DNA of 64,000 nucleotides, taken from positions 4,402,001 to 4,466,000 of the forward strand of contig NZ_JAVIWS010000001.1 of the NCBI RefSeq assembly GCF_031323975.1, in the 5' to 3' direction. The position numbers and the translations under genes are program-made. The notes under the pieces are model-generated. The model saw only the letters and a program-made list of their open reading frames with translations. It was not told the origin of the DNA and did no database searches. Below, piece by piece: positions 979 through 13,028 of this stretch (position 1 is its first letter; each line of letters begins with the position of its first letter). The stretch is from Escherichia ruysiae (GTDB taxonomy: Bacteria > Pseudomonadota > Gammaproteobacteria > Enterobacterales > Enterobacteriaceae).

Positions 979-3524
979 TGAACAATAACGATCTCTTTCA
1001 GGCATCACGTCGGCGTTTTCTGGCGCAGCTCGGCGGCTTAACCGTCGCCGGGATGCTGGGGCCGTCATTGTTAACGCCGCGCCGTGCGACTGCGGCGCAA
1101 GCGGCTACTGAGGCCGTCACCTCGAAAGAGGGCATTCTGACCGGATCGCACTGGGGGGCTATCCGCGCGACGGTGAAGGATGGTCGCTTTGTGGCGGCAA
1201 AACCGTTCGAACTGGATAAATATCCGTCGAAAATGATCGCCGGATTGCCGGATCACGTACACAACGCGGCGCGTATTCGTTATCCGATGGTACGCGTGGA
1301 CTGGCTGCGTAAGCGCCATCTGAGCGATACCTCCCAGCGCGGTGATAACCGTTTTGTGCGCGTGAGCTGGGATGAAGCCCTCGACATGTTCTATGAAGAA
1401 CTGGAACGCGTGCAGAAAACTCACGGGCCGAGTGCCTTGCTGACCGCCAGTGGTTGGCAATCGACGGGGATGTTCCATAACGCTTCGGGGATGCTGGCGA
1501 AAGCTATTGCCTTGCATGGTAATAGCGTTGGTACGGGCGGAGATTACTCTACCGGTGCTGCGCAGGTGATCCTGCCGCGCGTAGTCGGTTCGATGGAAGT
1601 GTATGAACAGCAAACCTCCTGGCCGCTGGTATTGCAGAACAGCAAAACCATTGTGCTGTGGGGCTCCGATTTGCTGAAAAACCAGCAAGCGAACTGGTGG
1701 TGCCCGGATCACGATGTTTATGAATATTACGAGCAGCTAAAAGCGAAAGTCGCCGCCGGTGAAGTTGTGGTCATCAGCATCGATCCGGTTGTCACATCCA
1801 CCCATGAGTATCTGGGGCGCGAGCATGTGAAGCACATTGCGGTTAACCCGCAAACTGACGTGCCGCTGCAACTGGCGCTGGCACATACGCTGTACAGTGA
1901 AAACCTGTACGACAAAAACTTCCTCGCTAACTACTGTGTGGGTTTTGAGCAGTTCCTGCCGTATCTGCTGGGTGAGAAAGACGGTCAGCCGAAAGATGCC
2001 GCATGGGCTGAAAAACTGACCGGCATTGATGCCGAAACCATTCGTGGGCTGGCGCGGCAGATGGCGGCGAACAGAACGCAAATTATTGCTGGCTGGTGCG
2101 TGCAGCGTATGCAGCACGGTGAACAGTGGGCGTGGATGATTGTCGTTCTGGCGGCGATGCTGGGGCAAATTGGCCTGCCAGGTGGTGGCTTTGGTTTTGG
2201 CTGGCACTATAACGGCGCAGGCACGCCGGGGCGTAAAGGCGTTATTCTGAGTGGTTTCTCCGGCTCTACGTCGATTCCGCCTGTTCACGACAACAGTGAC
2301 TACAAAGGCTACAGCAGCACCATTCCGATTGCCCGTTTTATCGATGCGATCCTCGAACCGGGGAAAGTGATCAACTGGAACGGTAAATCGGTAAAACTGC
2401 CGCCGCTGAAAATGTGTATTTTTGCCGGAACTAACCCGTTCCATCGCCATCAGCAGATCAACCGCATTATTGAAGGCTGGCGCAAGCTGGAAACGGTTAT
2501 CGCCATAGATAACCAGTGGACCTCAACCTGCCGCTTTGCCGACATCGTGCTGCCTGCGACCACGCAGTTTGAGCGTAACGATCTCGACCAGTACGGCAAC
2601 CACTCCAACCGTGGCATTATCGCCATGAAACAGGTCGTGCCGCCGCAGTTCGAGGCGCGCAACGACTTTGATATTTTCCGCGAGCTGTGCCGCCGCTTTA
2701 ATCGCGAAGAAGCCTTTACCGAAGGGCTGGACGAAATGGGCTGGCTGAAACGCATCTGGCAGGAAAGTGTACAACAGGGTAAAGGACGCGGCGTTCATCT
2801 GCCCGCGTTTGATGACTTCTGGAATAACAAAGAGTACGTCGAGTTTGACCATCCGCAGATGTTCGTTCGCCACCAGGCATTCCGCGAAGATCCGGATCTC
2901 GAACCGCTGGGCACGCCGAGTGGCCTGATTGAGATCTACTCGAAAACCATCGCCGATATGAACTACGACGATTGTCAGGGGCATCCGATGTGGTTTGAGA
3001 AAATCGAACGTTCCCACGGTGGACCCGGCTCGCAGAAGTATCCGTTGCATCTGCAATCTGTGCATCCCGATTTCCGACTTCACTCACAGTTATGTGAATC
3101 TGAAACCCTGCGTCAGCAATATACGGTAGCGGGTAAAGAGCCAGTATTTATTAGCCCGCAGGATGCCAGTGCGCGCGGTATTCGTAACGGTGATGTGGTA
3201 CGCGTGTTTAACGCTCGCGGTCAGGTGTTGGCAGGGGCAGTGGTTTCTGACCGCTATGCACCCGGCGTGGCGCGAATTCACGAAGGGGCATGGTACGATC
3301 CAGATAAAGGCGGCGAGCCTGGTGCGCTGTGCAAATACGGTAACCCCAACGTGTTGACCATCGACATCGGAACTTCGCAGCTGGCGCAGGCAACCAGTGC
3401 GCACACTACGCTGGTGGAAATTGAGAAGTACAACGGAACAGTGGAGCAGGTGACGGCATTTAGCGGCCCGATTGAGATGGTGGCGCAGTGCGAATATGTT
3501 CCGGCGTCGCAGGTGAAATCATGA
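978..3524 (+). CDS. torA: TorA, periplasmic trimethylamine-N-oxide reductase
   Basis: This 848-residue molybdopterin enzyme reduces TMAO to trimethylamine as terminal anaerobic reductase. The N-terminus carries a twin-arginine signal (SRRRFLAQL, residues 10-18) followed by a hydrophobic stretch and an Ala-rich cleavage region, so it is exported folded by Tat. Ser191 in the DYSTG motif fits the molybdenum ligand of the DMSO reductase family. Length is that of the K-12 protein. It overlaps torC by one base and torD by four, consistent with one polycistronic mRNA. Confidence 0.98.
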
Positions 3525-4120
3525 CCACGCTAACAGCACAACAGATTGCCTGTGTCTACGCCTGGCTGGCGCAGTTGTTCTCCCGTGAACTGGACGATGA
3601 ACAACTGACGCAAATCGCCAGTGCGCAGATGGCTGAATGGTTTTCGTTGCTGAAAAGCGAACCGCCGCTCACTGCGGCGGTGAATGAGCTGGAAAATCGT
3701 ATTGCCACTCTGACAGTACGTGACGATGCTCGTCTGGAACTGGCCGCTGACTTTTGCGGCCTGTTTCTGATGACCGACAAACAAGCCGCGCTGCCGTATG
3801 CATCGGCCTACAAACAGGACGAGCAAGAGATTAAACGCTTGTTAGTTGAGGCAGGGATGGAAACCAGCGGCAATTTCAACGAACCGTCAGATCATCTGGC
3901 GATCTATCTGGAGTTGTTAAGTCATCTGCATTTTTCACTGGGAGAGGGGACTGTTCCTGCGCGAAGAATCGACAGTTTGCGGCAAAAAACACTGACGGCG
4001 CTGCGGCAATGGTTACCGGAGTTTGCTGCGCGTTGCCGTCAGTATGATAGCTTTGGTTTTTACGCGGCACTAAGCCAGTTGTTGCAGGTGTTGGTGGAGT
4101 GCGACAACCAAAAGAGATAA
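3521..4120 (+). CDS. torD: TorD, chaperone for TorA maturation
   Basis: A cytoplasmic, all-helical chaperone of the TorD/DmsD family, 199 residues. It binds the TorA signal peptide and apo-enzyme and helps molybdenum cofactor insertion before Tat export. I chose the ATG at 3521, which overlaps the torA stop as ATGA, because the protein then starts MTTLTAQQ as in K-12. An in-frame start 33 bases upstream lies inside torA and would add eleven residues with no family support. No terminator is obvious; REP elements follow directly. Confidence 0.97.
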
Positions 4121-4125
4121 TGCCG

Positions 4126-4270
4126 ATTTGTAGGCCTGATAAGACGCGGTAAGCGTCGCATCAGGCATTATGGCAGAGCCGCCGGATGCGGCGTGAACGC
4201 CTTATCCGGCCTACGGGAACAGTGCCCTTTGTAGGCCTGATATGACGCGTTAAGCGTCGCATCAGGCAAC
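4126..4270. repeat. BIME: three REP units between torD and cbpM
   Basis: Three palindromic REP units with the usual GCC(G/T)GATGCG...CGC(C/T)TTATC(A/C)GGCCTAC pattern lie at about 4131-4167, 4177-4215 and 4232-4268, in alternating orientation. They sit between the convergent torD and cbpM ends. Such elements commonly stabilise 3' ends of mRNA and bind gyrase or IHF. Confidence 0.9.
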
Positions 4271-4274
4271 AAAC

Positions 4275-4580
4275 TCACGGATGAGCCACAAACCGGGAAA
4301 GCCGCTGGCGCAGCAGGCGGTTTTCCTGTTTCAGATGTGCAATATCATCCATTAACGTCAGCGCCACCGCGATCCCCGGCCAGTCCAGCGCCAGCTCATT
4401 ACGCAGCCGTACTGCGCGTTGCACCACGATGGCGGCATGGTCGTCAAATACCCAGGTTGTTTCCTGGATCTCACGCGGTTCAACCACCCCCAAACCGACA
4501 ATTTCATTCAACTCCTCTTCAGAGATGCCGGTATGCAGGCAAAATTCGGTAATGGTAAAAGTCACCATAACATTAGCCAT
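4275..4580 (-). CDS. cbpM: CbpM, modulator of the DnaJ homologue CbpA
   Basis: A 101-residue protein that binds the J domain of CbpA and inhibits both its co-chaperone and DNA-binding activities. The N-terminal half ([17 protein letters not shown]) looks like a MerR-type helix-turn-helix fold; the C-terminus is helical with a coiled-coil tendency ([12 protein letters not shown]). I chose the ATG at 4580, which shares its A with the cbpA stop codon (TGATG). An upstream in-frame start would add five residues and lie inside cbpA. Two-gene operon cbpA-cbpM. Confidence 0.96.
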
Positions 4581-5500
4581 CATGCTTTCCCCCAATCTTT
4601 GCGTGGATCAAAAGACGACTGGGCGTCTGCCAGTTGCTGCCACAGCGCGGCAGTGTTTTCATCTGGTTTCGGCGGCATCACGATTTTCAGTACCGCATAC
4701 AGATCGCCGGTCTGTTTTTTGCTCACCAGACCTTTGCCTTTAACGCGCAATCGTTGCCCGGCCTGGCTGCCAGGCGGGATAGTCAGCAAAATGCTTTCTT
4801 TCAGTGTTGGGACGGTGACTTTAGCACCCAGCGCCGCTTCCCACGGGCTAACCGGCACCACAATTTCCAGATCCTGACCGACAATATCAAACAGCGGATG
4901 CGGCGCAATATGAATCACCAGCCACAAATCGCCATTTGGACCACCGTTTTCGCCCGGCGTCCCCTGGCCTTTCAGGCGGATGCGTTGACCATTGCCGACG
5001 CCCGCCGGGATCTTCACATTCAGCGTTTTCGGAATTTCCTGTTCGATCATGCCAAAGGCGTTATAAACCGGCAGGTTATAGCTGATGGTACGCTTGTGCT
5101 CAGTAAGCGTTTCTTCAAGGAATACCGCCACTTCGATTTCAATATCGTGGCCACGTGTAGCGGGGCGCTGGCGACTCTGGCGGGCATGTTGACCGAAAAT
5201 TGACGAGAAGATATCGTCAAAATCTTCGGCGTTAAAACTCTGACCGTCGCCATGATGGAACTGACGGTTAAATTGCGGATCGTTGCGATGTTGCCACATC
5301 TGATCATACTCAGCGCGACGTTGCTCATCACTCAACACTTCCCACGCTTCAGCGACCTCTTTGAAGCGGGCTTCGGCATCGGGTTCTTTACTGACATCGG
5401 GATGGTATTTACGGGCCAGTCGACGATAGGCGGTCTTGATTGTCTTGAGATCGTCCGTCGGTTTCACGCCCATGATGGCGTAATAATCCTTTAATTCCAT
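4580..5500 (-). CDS. cbpA: CbpA, curved-DNA-binding DnaJ-type co-chaperone
   Basis: A 306-residue type II Hsp40. The J domain occupies roughly residues 4-70 with the HPD motif at 33-35 that stimulates DnaK ATPase; two C-terminal beta-barrel substrate-binding domains follow. It lacks the zinc finger of DnaJ. In K-12 it also binds curved DNA and accumulates in stationary phase under sigma-S control. cbpM follows with a one-base overlap. Upstream, 5501-5713, is the expected promoter region; in K-12 the next gene there is yccE, which is not found in this window. Confidence 0.97.
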
Positions 5501-5713
5501 AGCGTTATCTCGCGTAAATCAATACAGACAAAGGGAAACCCCTGACAAGGTATCAGTGTTAAGTGTAGGGGAAATCAGAAAAAATCGTAGGCCAGAGACA
5601 ACAACATAACTAAAAATGATATTTTCAGCCTGAATGTTGGCAGGTAAAAGAGGGGACGTTTAACCTTCAGGGATGCCCCATGACGACCTTGCCAGGGGGC
5701 AGAAAATGGGGGC

Positions 5714-6085
5714 TTATCCCGCTTTTACCGCAGTTACCATCACTTCAACCAGAATCTCCGGGCGGGCCATCTCAGCTTGTACGGTAGCACGTGCCGGGTT
5801 ATATCCTTCTGGTATCCAGCTAACCCATACGTCGTTGAAATCGGCAAAATCGCGGCTGATATCTTTTAACCATATCTGAGCGGACAAGAGATGAAATTTA
5901 TCACTGTCAGCTGCCGCAAGTAATTCGTCGATTTTCTCCAGCACTTCGCGCGTTTGTTGCGCGATGGACGGGGTATTGCTCTTCGGTGTCTGACCGGAGA
6001 GAAAAACAAGATTGCCATATTCCACGCTGGCGGCAAGACGCGGTTGTGGGTTATTACGTTTGATATTCAAGCTGATTGGCTCCAT
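5714..6085 (-). CDS. RidA/YjgF/UK114-family enamine/imine deaminase-like protein
   Basis: A 123-residue RidA superfamily member. The C-terminal part carries the family signature (PARATVQAEMARPEILVEV), including the arginine that in RidA binds the carboxylate of 2-imino acids. Known family members hydrolyse reactive imines released by PLP or flavin enzymes. The start overlaps the end of the upstream dehydrogenase gene by 19 bases, so translation is probably coupled. It is distinct from the RidA and TdcF paralogues typical of E. coli. Its physiological substrate is inferred from the neighbour, not proven. Confidence 0.88.
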   Translation of the reverse strand: MEPISLNIKRNNPQPRLAASVEYGNLVFLSGQTPKSNTPSIAQQTREVLEKIDELLAAADSDKFHLLSAQIWLKDISRDFADFNDVWVSWIPEGYNPARATVQAEMARPEILVEVMVTAVKAG

Positions 6086-7320
6086 GTCAGTCCATCAAGT
6101 GAAATTGCAGGGTCTTCGCCCGACAGCAGAGCGCCTAACACCACGGCACTACCCGCCGCCAGCGTAAAGCCCAGACTGCCCTGACCAAGATTCATCCATA
6201 GATTTTGATACTTCGCCCGTCCTAATAGTGGCGGACCCGCAGGGGTGGATGGACGCATACCCGTCCATAATTCGGCCTCATCGATACCTTGCAGTTGCGG
6301 AAAGCTGGCCGCTACGATCTGTTTTAAAGCGCCAATGCGTTCAGAGCGCAGTTCATTACCGTCATAGCCAATATCGACCATGGCGGCGATGCGCAACCGA
6401 TCACCGAGTCGGGCATAGACAATTTTATGACCATAGTCGGTGACACTGATTTGTGGTGCGATCCCCATTTTTTGTGGGAAGGGGAGCGTCAGACTGTAAC
6501 CTTTCAGACCGCAGAGCGGTACGTGAGTCCCGGTTCCGGCAAGCAAATGCGTGCTGCCATTACCGGCGGCAACGACATAATCATCCGCAACCAGCGTTCC
6601 AGTGCGGGTGGTAATAGAGACAATGCGCTCACCTTTTTTATTCAACTGCAAAACTTCACAATCGGTTTGTAGCGAAAAATTCGCGCTGGCATTAAGTTTG
6701 GCAAGTAATGCCTGACAGAACTTATAGCAATCTGCCGTTTCATCGCCGGGGGAGTAAATACCACCGCACAGGGAATGACCAATATGTTTTAGTGCAGGTT
6801 CAAGATGAACACACTCTTCGCGTGATAAAGCCTGTTGAAATTGCGGATCAATGCCTTTTGCCGCTTTGGCTAAATCTTGCTGACGGCGATGAATAATCAG
6901 TTTGCCAGAACGGCGCCAGTGAAAATCATCAAGATTATCTTCCAGCAACCATGCTTCCATGACCTGACGACTTAACAGTGATAAGCGTAAAATATGGTCG
7001 CCATTGAGTTTATTTGTCCGGCTATTACAGGACATTAAAAACGCCAGCAACCAGCGCCACTGGCTAAATGACAGGCGCAAACGCATATTCAGAGGGGAGT
7101 CACTTTTCCCCATCCATTTAAGCCCCTGCATCGGTACGCCTTTATCCGCCAGAGGGGCAACGTAGCGATAGCTGAGTTGCCCGCCATTAGCGAAACTGGT
7201 GGCGACGCCTGCCTGACTGTTGCGTTCTAACAATTGCACCTGATGGCCCTGTTTTACCAGCACCCATGCTGTCGCCAGACCAATTACCCCGCCGCCAATA
7301 ACTACAATGCGTTTTTTCAT
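6067..7320 (-). CDS. DadA-like FAD-dependent D-amino-acid dehydrogenase / DAO-family oxidoreductase
   Basis: A 417-residue FAD enzyme of the DAO/GlpD superfamily. The N-terminus has the dinucleotide-binding motif VVIGGGVIGLATAW and an acidic/polar second strand end (LLERNSQAG); the C-terminus has the family region WTGMRPSTPAGPPLLG and NLGQGSLGFTLAAGSA, as in DadA (432 aa). It likely deaminates D-amino acids oxidatively, passing electrons to the membrane quinone pool. I chose the ATG at 7320; a GTG immediately before it (7323) is an alternative. It lies 50 bases after the LysR gene and overlaps the RidA gene, forming one apparent operon. The exact substrate is unknown. Confidence 0.88.
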   Translation of the reverse strand: MKKRIVVIGGGVIGLATAWVLVKQGHQVQLLERNSQAGVATSFANGGQLSYRYVAPLADKGVPMQGLKWMGKSDSPLNMRLRLSFSQWRWLLAFLMSCNSRTNKLNGDHILRLSLLSRQVMEAWLLEDNLDDFHWRRSGKLIIHRRQQDLAKAAKGIDPQFQQALSREECVHLEPALKHIGHSLCGGIYSPGDETADCYKFCQALLAKLNASANFSLQTDCEVLQLNKKGERIVSITTRTGTLVADDYVVAAGNGSTHLLAGTGTHVPLCGLKGYSLTLPFPQKMGIAPQISVTDYGHKIVYARLGDRLRIAAMVDIGYDGNELRSERIGALKQIVAASFPQLQGIDEAELWTGMRPSTPAGPPLLGRAKYQNLWMNLGQGSLGFTLAAGSAVVLGALLSGEDPAISLDGLTWSQSA

Positions 7321-7370
7321 CACCTGAGATATCCACCGCTAATAAGTGCGTTGGGGATATGTCAAAACAT

Positions 7371-8285
7371 TTAGGCCTGAGGAGCAATTGACTTTTTATT
7401 TTCAGGGTATAACTCAAGGTTAATGGCTCGCAGTTGCTGACGTAATTGCTGACAGAGGAAATCGACAAATTTTTGTGTAATAGGGCTAAGCGAAACATCG
7501 GCACGGCGTAGCAAACAAAGGTCAATTTTCATTGGGGGGGCGATGGGGTGAATCGTCTCTGCCGGGAGGTTATGACGGGCAGAGAAAATATCGGTAATAC
7601 TGCATCCCATTCCTCGTTTTACAAATTCAGTCGCCATGTAATAGGTCTGGACATTCAGGCGTGTCGTCAAAAAATCACGTCGTTTAGCTATTGCATCAGA
7701 AAGGGAATAGGGGCCGGGAGAAATCCAGCGTTGTTGGTCAATCTTGTCTATTTCTACCGCGCCCTGTCGATAGTCCCGGTCGATATAAACCAGCGGAACT
7801 TCGGCTATCAGCGTCGTCATAATCTCCCCCTGTTGAATCGGCTGTAGCGTCAGAGCCAGATCAATCTCGCGCAGATCAAGCTTTTTAACCAACGTTTCGG
7901 TGTGCTCTGTCGTCAGTGTCATTACCAGATTCGCATTCTGCTGGTAAAACGCAGTGACTATTTCCGGCACCAGACTTAATCCCAGGCTTGGCAGACATCC
8001 CAGAGCTATTCTGGCTCGCGGATCTCGCGTCAGGTTATCGGCCAGCAGTCGCAGGTTATCGAGTTCGTGATAAATCGACTGCGCTTTTTCAAAAAGTGTG
8101 ATCGCTTCGCTGGTTGGAAGAAGCTTGCCACGCACTCGCTGAAAGAGCTGAAACCCGAGTTTTTGTTCAGCGTTTTTTAACGCTTTACTGGCGGCCGGCT
8201 GGGAAATATTCAGCGATTCCGCTGCCCGGGAAAGTGTCCCGCATGTCATTACGGCATAGAAGATTTCCAGGTGGCGCAGTTTCAT
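7371..8285 (-). CDS. LysR-family transcriptional regulator of the accessory amine-oxidation cassette
   Basis: A 304-residue LysR-type regulator. The N-terminal winged helix-turn-helix (about residues 1-60, with LSRAAESLNISQPAASKALKN) is classical and the rest is a periplasmic-binding-protein-like effector domain. It heads the run regulator, dehydrogenase, RidA and is divergent from the permease gene, the usual geometry for a LysR protein controlling both directions. The C-terminal effector specificity cannot be read. I do not recognise a named E. coli orthologue. Confidence 0.9.
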   Translation of the reverse strand: MKLRHLEIFYAVMTCGTLSRAAESLNISQPAASKALKNAEQKLGFQLFQRVRGKLLPTSEAITLFEKAQSIYHELDNLRLLADNLTRDPRARIALGCLPSLGLSLVPEIVTAFYQQNANLVMTLTTEHTETLVKKLDLREIDLALTLQPIQQGEIMTTLIAEVPLVYIDRDYRQGAVEIDKIDQQRWISPGPYSLSDAIAKRRDFLTTRLNVQTYYMATEFVKRGMGCSITDIFSARHNLPAETIHPIAPPMKIDLCLLRRADVSLSPITQKFVDFLCQQLRQQLRAINLELYPENKKSIAPQA

Positions 8286-8557
8286 TAAGAGTTAACCCAG
8301 AGTTATAGACAATAGATAAAAAGTCATTTCATGGTAACACCAAGTTAACATAAATTTAATCTGTAACGCCTGTTCTGGTAACAATGCGTTATTTGCCCAC
8401 CTAAAGGGGTTAATTACGAACTCAGAATAATACCTGTAGTACCCGGACAAACCCTCAGTGCATTTTGCTAACAATAATAACGAGGGGGGATATTTTCTGA
8501 GCTGTCCAAATACATCGGCTGATATTGATGGTCGATTCGATGGGGTTAAGGAGTTAT
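8286..8557. promoter_or_regulatory. Divergent control region between LysR gene and permease gene
   Basis: The 272-base AT-rich spacer separates divergent genes. I see five GTAAC/TTAAC-type words in about 90 bases, at 8291, 8333, 8344, 8362 and 8377, and an inverted TTAT-N9-ATAA at 8303-8319, which fits the loose T-N11-A pattern of LysR operators. These are candidates only; promoters are not clearly definable by eye. Confidence 0.5.
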
Positions 8558-9991
8558 ATGAGTGACTCAATGCTCGCTGGTGGTTCGCTAACCAGACAAA
8601 ATATCACCAAAAAGAATGTCATTATTGGTTTACTGTTGGTTGTTTTTTTACTGACAGCGTTCTGGTGTCAGGGGCGTCCAGGTAATGAACTCGGACTGCT
8701 TGGTTTTACACCGCTGGTAGCGTTAGCGGTGCTCTCGTTGATAGGCGTCGATATTGTTCTGGCGGTTATTTCATCGATTATTATTGCGATGATAATGACT
8801 TCCACCGGCTTACCTGAAATGGGCTCCATGCTGGCAAAATCGACGGGATCGTTTATCGCCACTGTAGGTCTGATTATTATGCTTGGCGCCGGTGTCGGGG
8901 AAGTGGCAACACGTACCGGAGCCGCCGTTGAACTGGTCAAATTTGTGGTACATCGTATCGGGCTTTCCAGCCAGACGCGGGTCAAATTTGGCATCGTTGT
9001 CTCTTCCATTCTCATCTGTGGCGCGCTGGGTACTATGGCTGGCGGTAATGCCATTATTGTTGCGGTGATTATTCCTGTGGCGGCGGCAGTACGGCTGACG
9101 CCTCCCACGGTGGCTGCACTGATGATGACGGCGGGTTCAGTGGGATTGTTTACCGGGCCATTTACCCCCAGTACCGTGACGATTTTACAACTCGGCGGCC
9201 TGACTTATCCGCAATACCTGATGTACGTTGGGCTACCAATGAGCGCCGTGACGTTATTCGCTGGCTGGATCATGGCCGGGCGAATTCAGAAGATGACGGA
9301 AGGAAAATTACATTACGAAGTGGATCTCTCTGAGAAAACTCAGGAAGAAGAGCAGCCCGCCCGTGTTCGCCGTCGCAAGCTCAGCGCGCTGGCATTTGCC
9401 GCAACCATTATTGTTATGGCGGTTATCGGTGTAGTGATAAAAGCAGGTTTTAGTTTTGCCATTATCGTGATGTTACTGGTGGCTTTGATCACCGGACTGG
9501 TGGGAGGATTAAGCCCTGCCGGGATACTGCAGGCGCTGTATAAGGGGTGTGGCAGACTGGTGTGGATGTTTCTGCTCTACTGGCTGTATAACCCGATTCT
9601 GGAACTTATGGATAGCCTGCAGGCGTATCAGGGGTTGCTCGAATACACTCAACCTCTGTTAACCGGGATATCACCAGCATGGCTTTGCTTCTGTATTTTT
9701 GCCTTTAACATTATCGGTCATGTGCCAGGCGCCGCTGTTGCTCAGATGACCTTTACGCACAAAATATTTGGTCCGATGTTGATGGCTGCGGGAGTGCCGC
9801 CACAGGGGACAACGGCGGTATTGTTGGCCTCATCGCAAGTGGACTGGTTTGGGCCTTTCCCTTCATCGGATATGTTTGGTCAAATGGGGCTGGCACAATC
9901 AACCCATCTGAAATATATGCTTTATAACGGTTGGACCATTGTCATTGCCAATATCATTCTTTTTGCCGTGCTGTTTCAGATATTAGTTTAA
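8558..9991 (+). CDS. Ion-transporter-superfamily permease (NhaC/GntP/CitMHS-like), substrate unknown
   Basis: A 477-residue integral membrane protein with about twelve hydrophobic segments arranged in two halves, separated by a charged cytoplasmic loop near residues 245-275 (rich in E, K and R). Features such as GALGTMAGGNAIIVA and a matching C-terminal half suggest the ion transporter superfamily of secondary carriers. The ATG at 8558 is preceded by AAGGAG at a good distance (8549-8553 region); an ATG 33 bases upstream lacks such a site. Divergent from the LysR gene, it probably imports the substrate of the adjacent dehydrogenase. The family assignment is tentative. Confidence 0.78.
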   Translation: MSDSMLAGGSLTRQNITKKNVIIGLLLVVFLLTAFWCQGRPGNELGLLGFTPLVALAVLSLIGVDIVLAVISSIIIAMIMTSTGLPEMGSMLAKSTGSFIATVGLIIMLGAGVGEVATRTGAAVELVKFVVHRIGLSSQTRVKFGIVVSSILICGALGTMAGGNAIIVAVIIPVAAAVRLTPPTVAALMMTAGSVGLFTGPFTPSTVTILQLGGLTYPQYLMYVGLPMSAVTLFAGWIMAGRIQKMTEGKLHYEVDLSEKTQEEEQPARVRRRKLSALAFAATIIVMAVIGVVIKAGFSFAIIVMLLVALITGLVGGLSPAGILQALYKGCGRLVWMFLLYWLYNPILELMDSLQAYQGLLEYTQPLLTGISPAWLCFCIFAFNIIGHVPGAAVAQMTFTHKIFGPMLMAAGVPPQGTTAVLLASSQVDWFGPFPSSDMFGQMGLAQSTHLKYMLYNGWTIVIANIILFAVLFQILV

Positions 9992-10000
9992 CGATACAAA

Positions 10001-10037
10001 CCAGGCGATAGCGCAGCTACTGTCAGTCATCGCCTGG
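10001..10037. terminator. Nine-base inverted repeat after the permease gene
   Basis: Arms CCAGGCGAT and ATCGCCTGG enclose a 19-base loop just after the permease stop. No T run follows, so it would be a weak or factor-dependent terminator; it also marks the boundary between the accessory cassette and conserved agp DNA. Confidence 0.4.
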
Positions 10038-10148
10038 TGCCCTGCAAGTTTCCCGCCTCGTTATCTGCTAATTTGCGAACCGGTTCCCGGAAATAAGTCA
10101 TATTTCTGTCACACTCTTTAATCATTGATAACAAAAGAGGTGTGAGGA

Positions 10149-11390
10149 ATGAAAAAAACGCTAATCGCCGCAGCCGTGGCAGGGATGGCTTTGCTTTCTT
10201 CAAATACTCAGGCACAGGCTGTACCGGAGGGCTATCAGCTACAGCAAGTGCTTATGATGAGTCGCCATAACTTACGCGCACCGCTGGCTAATAATGGCAG
10301 TGTGCTTGAGCAGTCGACGCCGAATAAATGGCCAGAATGGGATGTTCCCGGCGGGCAGCTCACCACTAAAGGTGGCGTGCTGGAAGTGTATATGGGGCAT
10401 TACATGCGTGAATGGCTGGCAGAGCAGGGGATGGTAAAGTCGGGTGAATGCCCGTCGCCGGACACCGTTTATGCCTACGCAAACAGCCTGCAACGTACCG
10501 TCGCTACCGCGCAGTTCTTTATTACCGGCGCATTCCCTGGATGTGATATTCCTGTTCATCACCAGGAAAAAATGGGCACTATGGATCCAACCTTTAACCC
10601 GGTAATCACCGATGATTCCGCCGCATTCAGTGAGCAGGCGGTGGCGGCAATGGAGAAAGAGTTCAGCAAACTACAACTGACTGACAGCTATCAGCTACTG
10701 GAAAAAATCGTTAACTATAAAGACTCTCCAGCCTGTAAAGAGAAGCAGCAATGTTCGCTGGTGGATGGCAAAAATACCTTCAGTGCGAAGTATCAACAAG
10801 AGCCGGGCGTTTCCGGGCCATTGAAAGTAGGCAACTCGCTGGTGGATGCTTTCACTTTGCAATACTACGAAGGTTTCCCGATGGATCAGGTGGCGTGGGG
10901 GGAAATTAAATCTGACCAACAGTGGAAGGTGTTGTCGAAGCTGAAAAACGGCTACCAGGACAGCTTGTTTACCTCACCGGAAGTAGCGCGCAATGTTGCG
11001 AAACCGTTGGTCAGTTATATCGACAAAGCCCTGGTCACCGATCGTGCCAGCGCACCGAAAATCACTGTGCTGGTGGGGCATGACTCTAACATCGCCTCAT
11101 TGCTGACCGCGCTGGACTTTAAACCCTATCAGTTGCATGACCAGAACGAACGCACGCCAATTGGCGGCAAAATCGTTTTCCAGCGTTGGCATGACAGCAA
11201 AGCCAATCGTGATTTGATGAAAATTGAATATGTTTATCAAAGTTCGGAACAGTTGCGTAATGCCGACGCGTTAACGTTACAGGCTCCGGCTCAGCGGGTG
11301 ACGCTGGAATTAAGCGGTTGCCCGATAGACGCTGATGGTTTCTGTCCAATGGATAAGTTTGATAGCGTGTTGAATGAAGCAGTGAAATAA
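10149..11390 (+). CDS. agp: Agp, periplasmic glucose-1-phosphatase
   Basis: A 413-residue histidine acid phosphatase that releases glucose from glucose-1-phosphate in the periplasm. A Sec signal peptide ([16 protein letters not shown]..., cleaved after about residue 22, SNTQAQA) precedes the catalytic RHNLRAP motif (nucleophilic His) and a later HDSN motif providing the proton donor. Length equals the K-12 enzyme. GAGGTGTGAGGA upstream is a strong ribosome binding site. Monocistronic, closed by the hairpin at 11397. Confidence 0.97.
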
Positions 11391-11396
11391 CAGAAA

Positions 11397-11421
11397 ACTC
11401 CCCCGCGAGAAACGGGGGAGT
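11397..11421. terminator. Bidirectional terminator between agp and yccJ
   Basis: A perfect hairpin, ACTCCCCC-GCGAGAAAC-GGGGGAGT, lies between convergent genes. On the minus strand it is followed by GTTTTCTG; on the plus strand by few Ts, so it works best for yccJ-wrbA readthrough. Confidence 0.8.
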
Positions 11422-11427
11422 CACTGG

Positions 11428-11655
11428 TTAAACGTTTTTACGTTCGATGGTCTGTTCGCCCCAAAAAAGCGAATCTTTATCGGTTTTGGCAAAGGCTTTG
11501 ACTAACACTTCATCGCTACCTTCTTCCCAAATTTTTTCCGCCATTTTCTCGTCGTACCCGGCGACTTCAAAAATGGCCTCGGCTATTTCCGGCGACGTAT
11601 TGCGCAGAGATGCCCATTCACCCACGTGATGAGCTTTCGCTTCTTGAGTTGGCAT
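11428..11655 (-). CDS. yccJ: YccJ, small conserved stress-associated protein
   Basis: A 75-residue acidic, helical, soluble protein of unknown biochemical function, matching K-12 YccJ in length and sequence. It follows wrbA by 20 bases on the same strand with an AGGAGG ribosome binding site, so the two are probably cotranscribed; in K-12 both belong to the general stress response. No catalytic motif is visible. Confidence 0.93.
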
Positions 11656-11675
11656 GCGTATCCTCCTGTTGAAGA

Positions 11676-12633
<958 letters not shown>

Positions 12634-12807
12634 ATGGCAAACCATCGAGGCGGTTCCGGCAATTTTGCAGAAGACCGCGAAAGAGCATCAGAAGCAGGTA
12701 AAAAAGGTGGACAGCACAGCGGGGGGAATTTCAAAAATGACCCGCAGCGCGCATCTGAAGCAGGAAAAAAAGGGGGCAAAAGCAGTCACGGCAAAAGCAA
12801 CAACTAG
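12634..12807 (+). CDS. ymdF: YmdF, small KGG-repeat stress protein
   Basis: A 57-residue, very hydrophilic protein made of two copies of a KGG motif, GGNFxxDxxRASEAGKKGG, followed by a Ser/Lys/Gly tail. This is the KGG/Con-10 family (relatives YciG and GsiB), linked to stationary-phase and general stress and probably disordered. ACGGAGGT upstream sets the start. A strong terminator follows at 12862. In K-12 the next genes would be rutG-A; here they are missing. Confidence 0.93.
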   Translation: MANHRGGSGNFAEDRERASEAGKKGGQHSGGNFKNDPQRASEAGKKGGKSSHGKSNN

Positions 12808-12861
12808 CCGGGCTACTCTATGATGAATGCGTTTTGTCTGACGCGCGTCAATACGCCACTG

Positions 12862-12885
12862 CCGCCGGTAATTCCGGCGGTTTTT
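12862..12885 (+). terminator. Rho-independent terminator after ymdF
   Basis: The hairpin CCGCCGG-TAATT-CCGGCGG is followed by five Ts (12881-12885), a textbook terminator. Confidence 0.88.
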
Positions 12886-13028
12886 CGTTCTGGTACTCTC
12901 CTTAATATCCTCGTGTTAATACCTTTCTCGCTCATTCCACCATTATTCATTCGTGCCGTGAATGTTGATGGTCGAGGCATCGTGCTGATTTTGCTATCCT
13001 GTTGCCAGTCTACAAGAGGGGTGAGCGC

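Follow-up and report, generated by a model that had tools for sequence, protein, structure and literature searches.

The window analysed here is a stretch of 64,000 nucleotides of Escherichia ruysiae. It carries a cassette of four genes between cbpA and agp, where K-12 has the yccE stretch (Table 1). As stated in the first-pass annotation, a LysR regulator, a DadA-like FAD dehydrogenase, a RidA-like protein and a divergent permease were present as ORFs at the stated place. In a blastn comparison with window 3001-13000 as query, the alignment with K-12 DNA ended at window 5594 and restarted at 10072, and the equivalent K-12 stretch including yccE was 1,640 bp in size. No match to yccE was found elsewhere in the E. 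ruysiae genome in a search run without a positive control.

Table 1. Features of the cassette locus in window coordinates
Feature	Position	Strand	Basis
Rid-family (Rid2-like) protein, 123-aa ORF	5714..6085	-	PF01042
DadA-type FAD dehydrogenase	6067..7323	-	PF01266 + NF001933
LysR-type regulator	7371..8285	-	PF00126 + PF03466
Divergent control region	8286..8557		Conserved blocks (alignment of 12 enterobacterial sequences)
Divergent permease, 477 aa	8558..9991	+	Below all Pfam cut-offs
Region not aligning with K-12 DNA; cassette replaces the yccE stretch	5595..10071		blastn

The start of the dehydrogenase in the ORF list is a GTG directly 5' of an ATG, and the ATG suits the relatives of 417 aa. 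The permease was listed from position 8525; the ATG at 8558 corresponds to the 477 aa of the annotated relative NT1N25. The best segment of the permease was 100% identical to record CP089930 (Escherichia coli strain E69). The end of the dehydrogenase gene and the beginning of rid share 19 bp, and the gap between lysR and the dehydrogenase gene is 47 bp, so that the three minus-strand genes lysR, dehydrogenase and rid probably form one operon. In comparison with seven Escherichia relatives dN/dS was 0.13-0.26 for rid, 0.08-0.12 for the dehydrogenase, 0.01-0.05 for lysR and 0.03-0.05 for the permease.

Four conserved blocks were found in the divergent region: GTTAAC at 8291 beside lysR, TTAACATA at 8345, and CTCAG at 8421 and TCTGAG at 8496 in the permease leader. 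GTTAAC, TTAACATA and the CTCAG and TCTGAG cores were unchanged in 12 of 12 aligned enterobacterial sequences. Synonymous sites between Escherichia and Klebsiella/Raoultella were close to or beyond saturation, and nonetheless the blocks were invariant. They are candidate LysR operators. Promoter and terminator scans were uninformative (promoters 5, shuffles 6.1; terminators 7, shuffles 4.9), and the single Rfam match was irrelevant and under the gathering score.

Distribution and gene order

Seven of the 11 Escherichia species representatives carried the permease; among all relatives the count was 8 of 60. The gene was found in 9 of 295 sampled Enterobacteriaceae and in two of 398 genomes sampled across the phylum, both of them Enterobacteriaceae. 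The cassette was carried by five of 5,426 complete E. coli genomes with 94% identity. With seven of eleven Escherichia representatives the cassette, termed accessory before, is not merely an E. coli accessory. Among the four Escherichia representatives without the permease, G001 carried a 72% yccE orthologue at the locus and G010 a 23% match over 239 residues. G002 and G003 had short yccE-like fragments (42 and 28 residues), and in G003 the agp side of the locus was broken as well.

The order of the four genes was constant in Escherichia, Klebsiella, Raoultella, Enterobacter, Acinetobacter rudis and Bartonella choladocola. The loci compared for co-occurrence (21 from a genome scan, six further enterobacterial and six Escherichia loci) were all located via the permease. 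All four genes in the same order were present in 11 of the 21 scan loci, namely in four records titled Escherichia, in Enterobacter sp. JUb54, three Raoultella, K. pneumoniae, B. choladocola and A. rudis. The other ten were betaproteobacterial records with a permease 57-58% identical; one of these, Cupriavidus basilensis, showed LysR and dehydrogenase matches too. All six further enterobacterial loci contained the four genes, one of them with a truncated LysR and permease, and so did all six Escherichia loci, three of which are probably the same assemblies as scan loci. The co-occurrence elsewhere that was proposed earlier as a check was thus confirmed. Since the four genes recur in identical order in distant genera and dN/dS ranged from 0.01 to 0.26, the cassette is a real, conserved module beyond chance.

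With the dehydrogenase as query, matches at E 1e-110 were obtained in four of 345 genomes of the order. Two of them carry the cassette. In the other two (L112 and L113) the dehydrogenase was 52% identical, and no Rid, LysR or permease match was found within the fetched 15 kb. A TRAP-type transporter (Pfam: DctM, NMT1_3 binding protein) adjoins the dehydrogenase in L113, and a similar TRAP ORF was seen by eye near that of L112. Some binding proteins of the NMT1_3/TRAP kind bind glutamate. The dehydrogenase search of the class sample gave matches in 22 of 369 genomes, the best outside the E. ruysiae genome being 40% identical.

Outside Escherichia, in six of the seven enterobacterial loci with ORFs listed (L015, L018, L047, L049, L050 and L051, but not L046), the genes flanking the cassette, read by eye, are presumably pheT and btuC instead of cbpA and agp. 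The module is one that moves as a unit, at chromosomal sites that differ by genus. No plasmid copies were matched at the DNA level. At the protein level six Klebsiella records of the plasmid collection were found in each of two comparisons, and two of the dehydrogenase records exceeded 1 Mb.

Relationships of the encoded proteins

The dehydrogenase scored 430 bits against the NCBIfam model NF001933 'D-amino acid dehydrogenase' (cut-off 383). In a tree of 47 rows, made by a quick method with no bootstrap and with several long branches outside the cassette group, it fell into a supported group of 18 (SH-aLRT 99) separate from canonical DadA. This group comprised the window enzyme and proteins of Klebsiella, Raoultella, Pluralibacter, Acinetobacter, Bartonella, Providencia, Xenorhabdus and Wohlfahrtiimonas. 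The identity was 78% to the orthologue of R. ornithinolytica and 36-37% to the canonical DadA of the E. ruysiae genome itself. A canonical dadA is present besides the cassette gene both in the E. ruysiae genome and in R. ornithinolytica. A duplication of canonical dadA was not supported by the tree or by the separate canonical copy in the genome. The placement as a dadAX operon did not apply either, as no alanine racemase gene was found in the cassette. The enzyme is a probable D-glutamate dehydrogenase.

The closest solved structures of the dehydrogenase were glycine and sarcosine oxidases. This could point to a non-catabolic role, i.e. the removal of disturbing D-amino acids or of amines of the glycine/sarcosine type. 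However, the structure matches were weak (E 2.8e-15 at best) compared with the DadA subfamily score, and the growth of Raoultella with D-glutamate as sole carbon source is catabolic (PMC6131576). We consider such a role very improbable.

The Rid protein matched PF01042 with 78.9 bits. Its best PDB match was PA5083 of P. aeruginosa (58% identity over 106 residues), which we take to be DguB of the D-glutamate locus dguRABC. The motif PARATVQ aligned with PSRTTVQ of PA5083, and by this alignment R99 of the 123-aa ORF is the arginine required for imine hydrolysis. The protein thus resembles PA5083 as a Rid2 that has the catalytic arginine in place. PA5083 has been listed as Rid2 in the study that gives the arginine criterion, and acts on several imines including iminoarginine from DauA (PMC5619798). 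Among the proteins shown there to rescue a ridA mutant no Rid2 is named, though PA5083 was tested (PMC5619798). For the cassette protein, 2-iminoglutarate hydrolase is the probable function.

The LysR protein consists of a HTH domain (PF00126) and a substrate domain (PF03466), and reached no NCBIfam equivalog cut-off among the models shown. It is probably the sensor of D-glutamate.

The permease stayed below every Pfam cut-off (DctM 16.6 bits, cut-off 23.8; GntP 8.4 bits, cut-off 22.5) and had no match better than E 1.9 among PDB sequences. At least nine hydrophobic segments were seen in a simple hydropathy scan. One relative is labelled 'gluconate:proton symporter' in RefSeq. Transport of gluconate by a GntP-type protein was rejected, given the GntP score and the lack of a gluconate gene in the cassette. 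Judged by its gene context, the protein is a probable D-glutamate importer.

In Alcaligenes (L028) a relative of the permease follows a protein that matched N-acyl-D-glutamate deacylase 3gip with 764 bits, compared to 408 bits for D-aminoacylase. Further downstream an N-formylglutamate deformylase (over the cut-off), a class A beta-lactamase-like protein and a carbon-nitrogen hydrolase are encoded. Of the 10 betaproteobacterial loci, six had a gene of the D-aminoacylase family close to the permease, and no amidohydrolase of this family was found in the fetched DNA of the other four. C. metallidurans CH34 combined in one cluster a DadA-like dehydrogenase (41% to that of the window), a Rid-like protein (31%), a D-aminoacylase-family amidohydrolase and the permease (61%). 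The CH34 amidohydrolase scored higher with D-aminoacylase (493 bits) than with N-acyl-D-glutamate deacylase (426 bits), which weakens the D-glutamate argument for this strain.

From the deacylase match and the deformylase of Alcaligenes one might suppose that a derivative is imported (D-glutamine, N-acyl- or N-formyl-D-glutamate or a small peptide) and that D-glutamate is an intermediate. We regard this as quite improbable for the cassette, which is without deacylase or deformylase; moreover, free D-glutamate supports growth of Raoultella (PMC6131576).

Evidence for D-glutamate as the likely substrate

Naganuma et al. (2018) reported better growth on D-glutamate than on L-glutamate for R. ornithinolytica A25 as well as for the standard strain JCM 6096T (PMC6131576). 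Strain A25 did not grow on D-aspartate and grew less on D-alanine than on L-alanine, so that among the three D-amino acids only D-glutamate surpassed its L-form (PMC6131576). Extracts reduced ferricyanide with D-glutamate and not with L-glutamate (PMC6131576). In the early exponential phase on D-glutamate a gene termed 'dadA' was up by RT-qPCR, a doubly normalised measurement of which the authors state the limits, and murI, dao and murD were not regarded as enhanced (PMC6131576). Strain A25 required ammonium, D-glutamate not being its nitrogen source (PMC6131576); this is unexpected, because a D-glutamate pathway would free ammonia.

We compared the published 'dadA' primers (PMC6131576) with the cassette dehydrogenase of R. 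ornithinolytica NBRC 105727 = ATCC 31898 (L017) and found no mismatches and a product of 120 bp, as given in the primer table. Among the 15 loci tested both primers were perfect in this one only; R. planticola showed 0 and 1 mismatches. In the genome of this strain, which we take to be the same type strain as JCM 6096, the forward primer had a single perfect site and two sites elsewhere with three mismatches. The canonical dadA of R. ornithinolytica lies at another place (745 bits), and its 4.25-kb locus had at least six mismatches to either primer. Because the primers match the cassette dehydrogenase perfectly and not canonical dadA, we conclude that the D-glutamate-induced 'dadA' in print is the cassette gene.

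The substrate of the cassette is most likely D-glutamate. The first-pass annotation had suggested a D-amino acid or a related amine; the primer match, together with the published growth and induction, supports this and narrows it to D-glutamate. The published data concern Raoultella, with an orthologue 78% identical, and not Escherichia.

Since the enzyme lies above the cut-off of the same NCBIfam subfamily model as canonical enterobacterial DadA, and canonical DadA is reported to be active on a variety of D-amino acids (PMC9436414), the cassette might instead be an additional D-amino acid dehydrogenase system of broad range, for which D-glutamate is just one of several inducers or substrates. 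Against this stand the canonical dadA already present in both genomes, the different clade of the cassette enzyme and its low identity to DadA, and the growth of A25, for which D-glutamate was the only one of three D-forms to be preferred (PMC6131576). A broad-range system is therefore unlikely in our opinion.

We rather consider the cassette as a self-contained D-glutamate catabolic module, a reading that is likely though not certain. The permease would import D-glutamate. LysR would sense it and activate the permease gene as well as, in the opposite direction, the operon of lysR, dehydrogenase and rid, in line with the D-glutamate induction of the orthologous dehydrogenase gene in Raoultella. 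The DadA-type flavoenzyme would convert D-glutamate to 2-iminoglutarate and pass the electrons to the respiratory chain; the dye reduction by Raoultella extracts may be assigned to this gene. Finally, the Rid protein would, by the chemistry of its family, convert 2-iminoglutarate to 2-oxoglutarate and ammonia. The mechanism proposed before, in which uptake under regulation is followed by oxidation to an imine and its removal by Rid, is supported and is still the best reading.

Related systems and significance

The locus dguRABC of P. aeruginosa was reportedly described by He et al. in 2014 for the utilisation of D-glutamate and D-glutamine, and is cited in PMC10926688 and PMC6131576. There, dguR is divergent from dguABC, dguC encodes a periplasmic binding protein and uptake is by AatJMQP. 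The cassette resembles dguRABC in the LysR-type regulator beside enzyme genes, the DadA-family FAD dehydrogenase, the Rid2 protein and, most likely, D-glutamate as the substrate, the likeness to DguA and DguR being by description and that of the Rid protein by sequence (58%). In contrast, the cassette lysR is read in the same direction as the enzyme genes, and in place of a periplasmic binding protein there is a single-protein permease, encoded divergently by the fourth gene. DguR has been described as the regulator of the dguA promoter in D-glutamate catabolism (PMC10926688). The first-pass annotation knew of no named E. coli system of this combination; it missed the named Pseudomonas parallel dguRABC, whose enzymes follow the same logic. 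When 369 class genomes were searched with a PA5083 stretch, seven matches in six genomes including E. ruysiae were obtained, and no dgu locus was found. In the six other matching loci neither LysR nor the permease was matched; near the Rid gene of one of them (L059) there was a distant DadA match.

In dadRAXY of Pseudomonas the DadA-family dehydrogenase likewise has a Rid2 neighbour, DadY, by which the imine it releases is hydrolysed (PMC9714295). By analogy, DadY is the best experimental precedent for the proposed Rid step. That system differs in its AsnC-type regulator, alanine racemase and D-alanine substrate, and its operon description contains no permease (PMC9714295). Clustering of Rid genes with genes of FAD-dependent amine oxidases, and hence the pairing of Rid with an imine-making flavoenzyme, was already published by Niehaus et al. 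(2015) with emphasis on RidA and Rid3 (PMC4433059); 'LysR' and 'D-glutamate' are absent from the main text (PMC4433059). At the level of result listings, our literature search found no paper naming an enterobacterial locus of this kind.

D-glutamate is a mirror-image amino acid of bacterial cell walls. The module very probably enables its uptake and burning, in several Escherichia relatives and in very few E. coli. With slightly more confidence than doubt we further propose that the permease is the first member of a D-glutamate importer family not described so far and that the module splits the genus Escherichia along dietary lines. Free D-glutamate from cell-wall or poly-glutamate debris would feed several of the species representatives, and nearly all E. 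coli would have lost the module or never had it. The proposed metabolic difference within Escherichia is open to a simple growth test, and the permease points to a candidate family of D-glutamate transporters for which Pfam has no model.

If this holds true, the D-glutamate-inducible 'dadA' of the Raoultella study (PMC6131576), which our comparison indicates not to be canonical dadA, provides the first expression evidence for the module. The analysis also gives a likely substrate for genes of Klebsiella, Raoultella and several Escherichia that databases label 'gluconate:proton symporter' and 'D-amino acid dehydrogenase'. Two clusters named for K. pneumoniae represented 3,291 dehydrogenase and 5,275 permease sequences.

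Divergence and decay of the cassette, and occupancy of the cbpA-agp locus

Between the window genome and seven Escherichia relatives, dS ranged from 0.15 to 0.29 for the cassette genes and from 0.66 to 0.82 for the neighbouring agp, with the lower values found for the cassette genes in all seven comparisons. The values for cbpA were mixed (0.24-1.14). Species may have exchanged the cassette with one another. In Escherichia genomes without the cassette (L099, L100, L101 and L102) a yccE orthologue or mere yccE-like pieces occupied the site, and the cbpA-agp locus therefore looks like a swap site. The enterobacterial copy at L050, outside Escherichia, is a decayed cassette; it lacked the divergent control region as well as the 5' parts of lysR and the permease gene.

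Positions of the features discussed
Feature	Location	Content
Cassette genes	window 5714-9991	
agp	window 10149-11390	
Permease leader	window 8421-8501	CTCAGAA and TTCTGAG, inverted, spacing ~67 bases
Decayed copy	L050:4631-7700	
Alcaligenes cluster	L028:4316-9926	N-acyl-D-glutamate deacylase match, permease relative, class A beta-lactamase-like protein, carbon-nitrogen hydrolase, N-formylglutamate deformylase

Permease leader

The inverted blocks of the permease leader represent a candidate operator or RNA element. Within them, CTCAG and TCTGAG were invariant in the 12 aligned enterobacterial control regions.

Relatives of the permease and the dehydrogenase

In Alcaligenes, the cluster carrying a permease relative appears to encode a pathway acting on N-acylated D-amino acids. 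P0061, a Xenorhabdus mauleonii protein and 57% relative of the cassette dehydrogenase, bears the source annotation 'hydrogen cyanide synthase HcnC'; it fell into the cassette-like group of the dehydrogenase tree, which makes this name appear doubtful.
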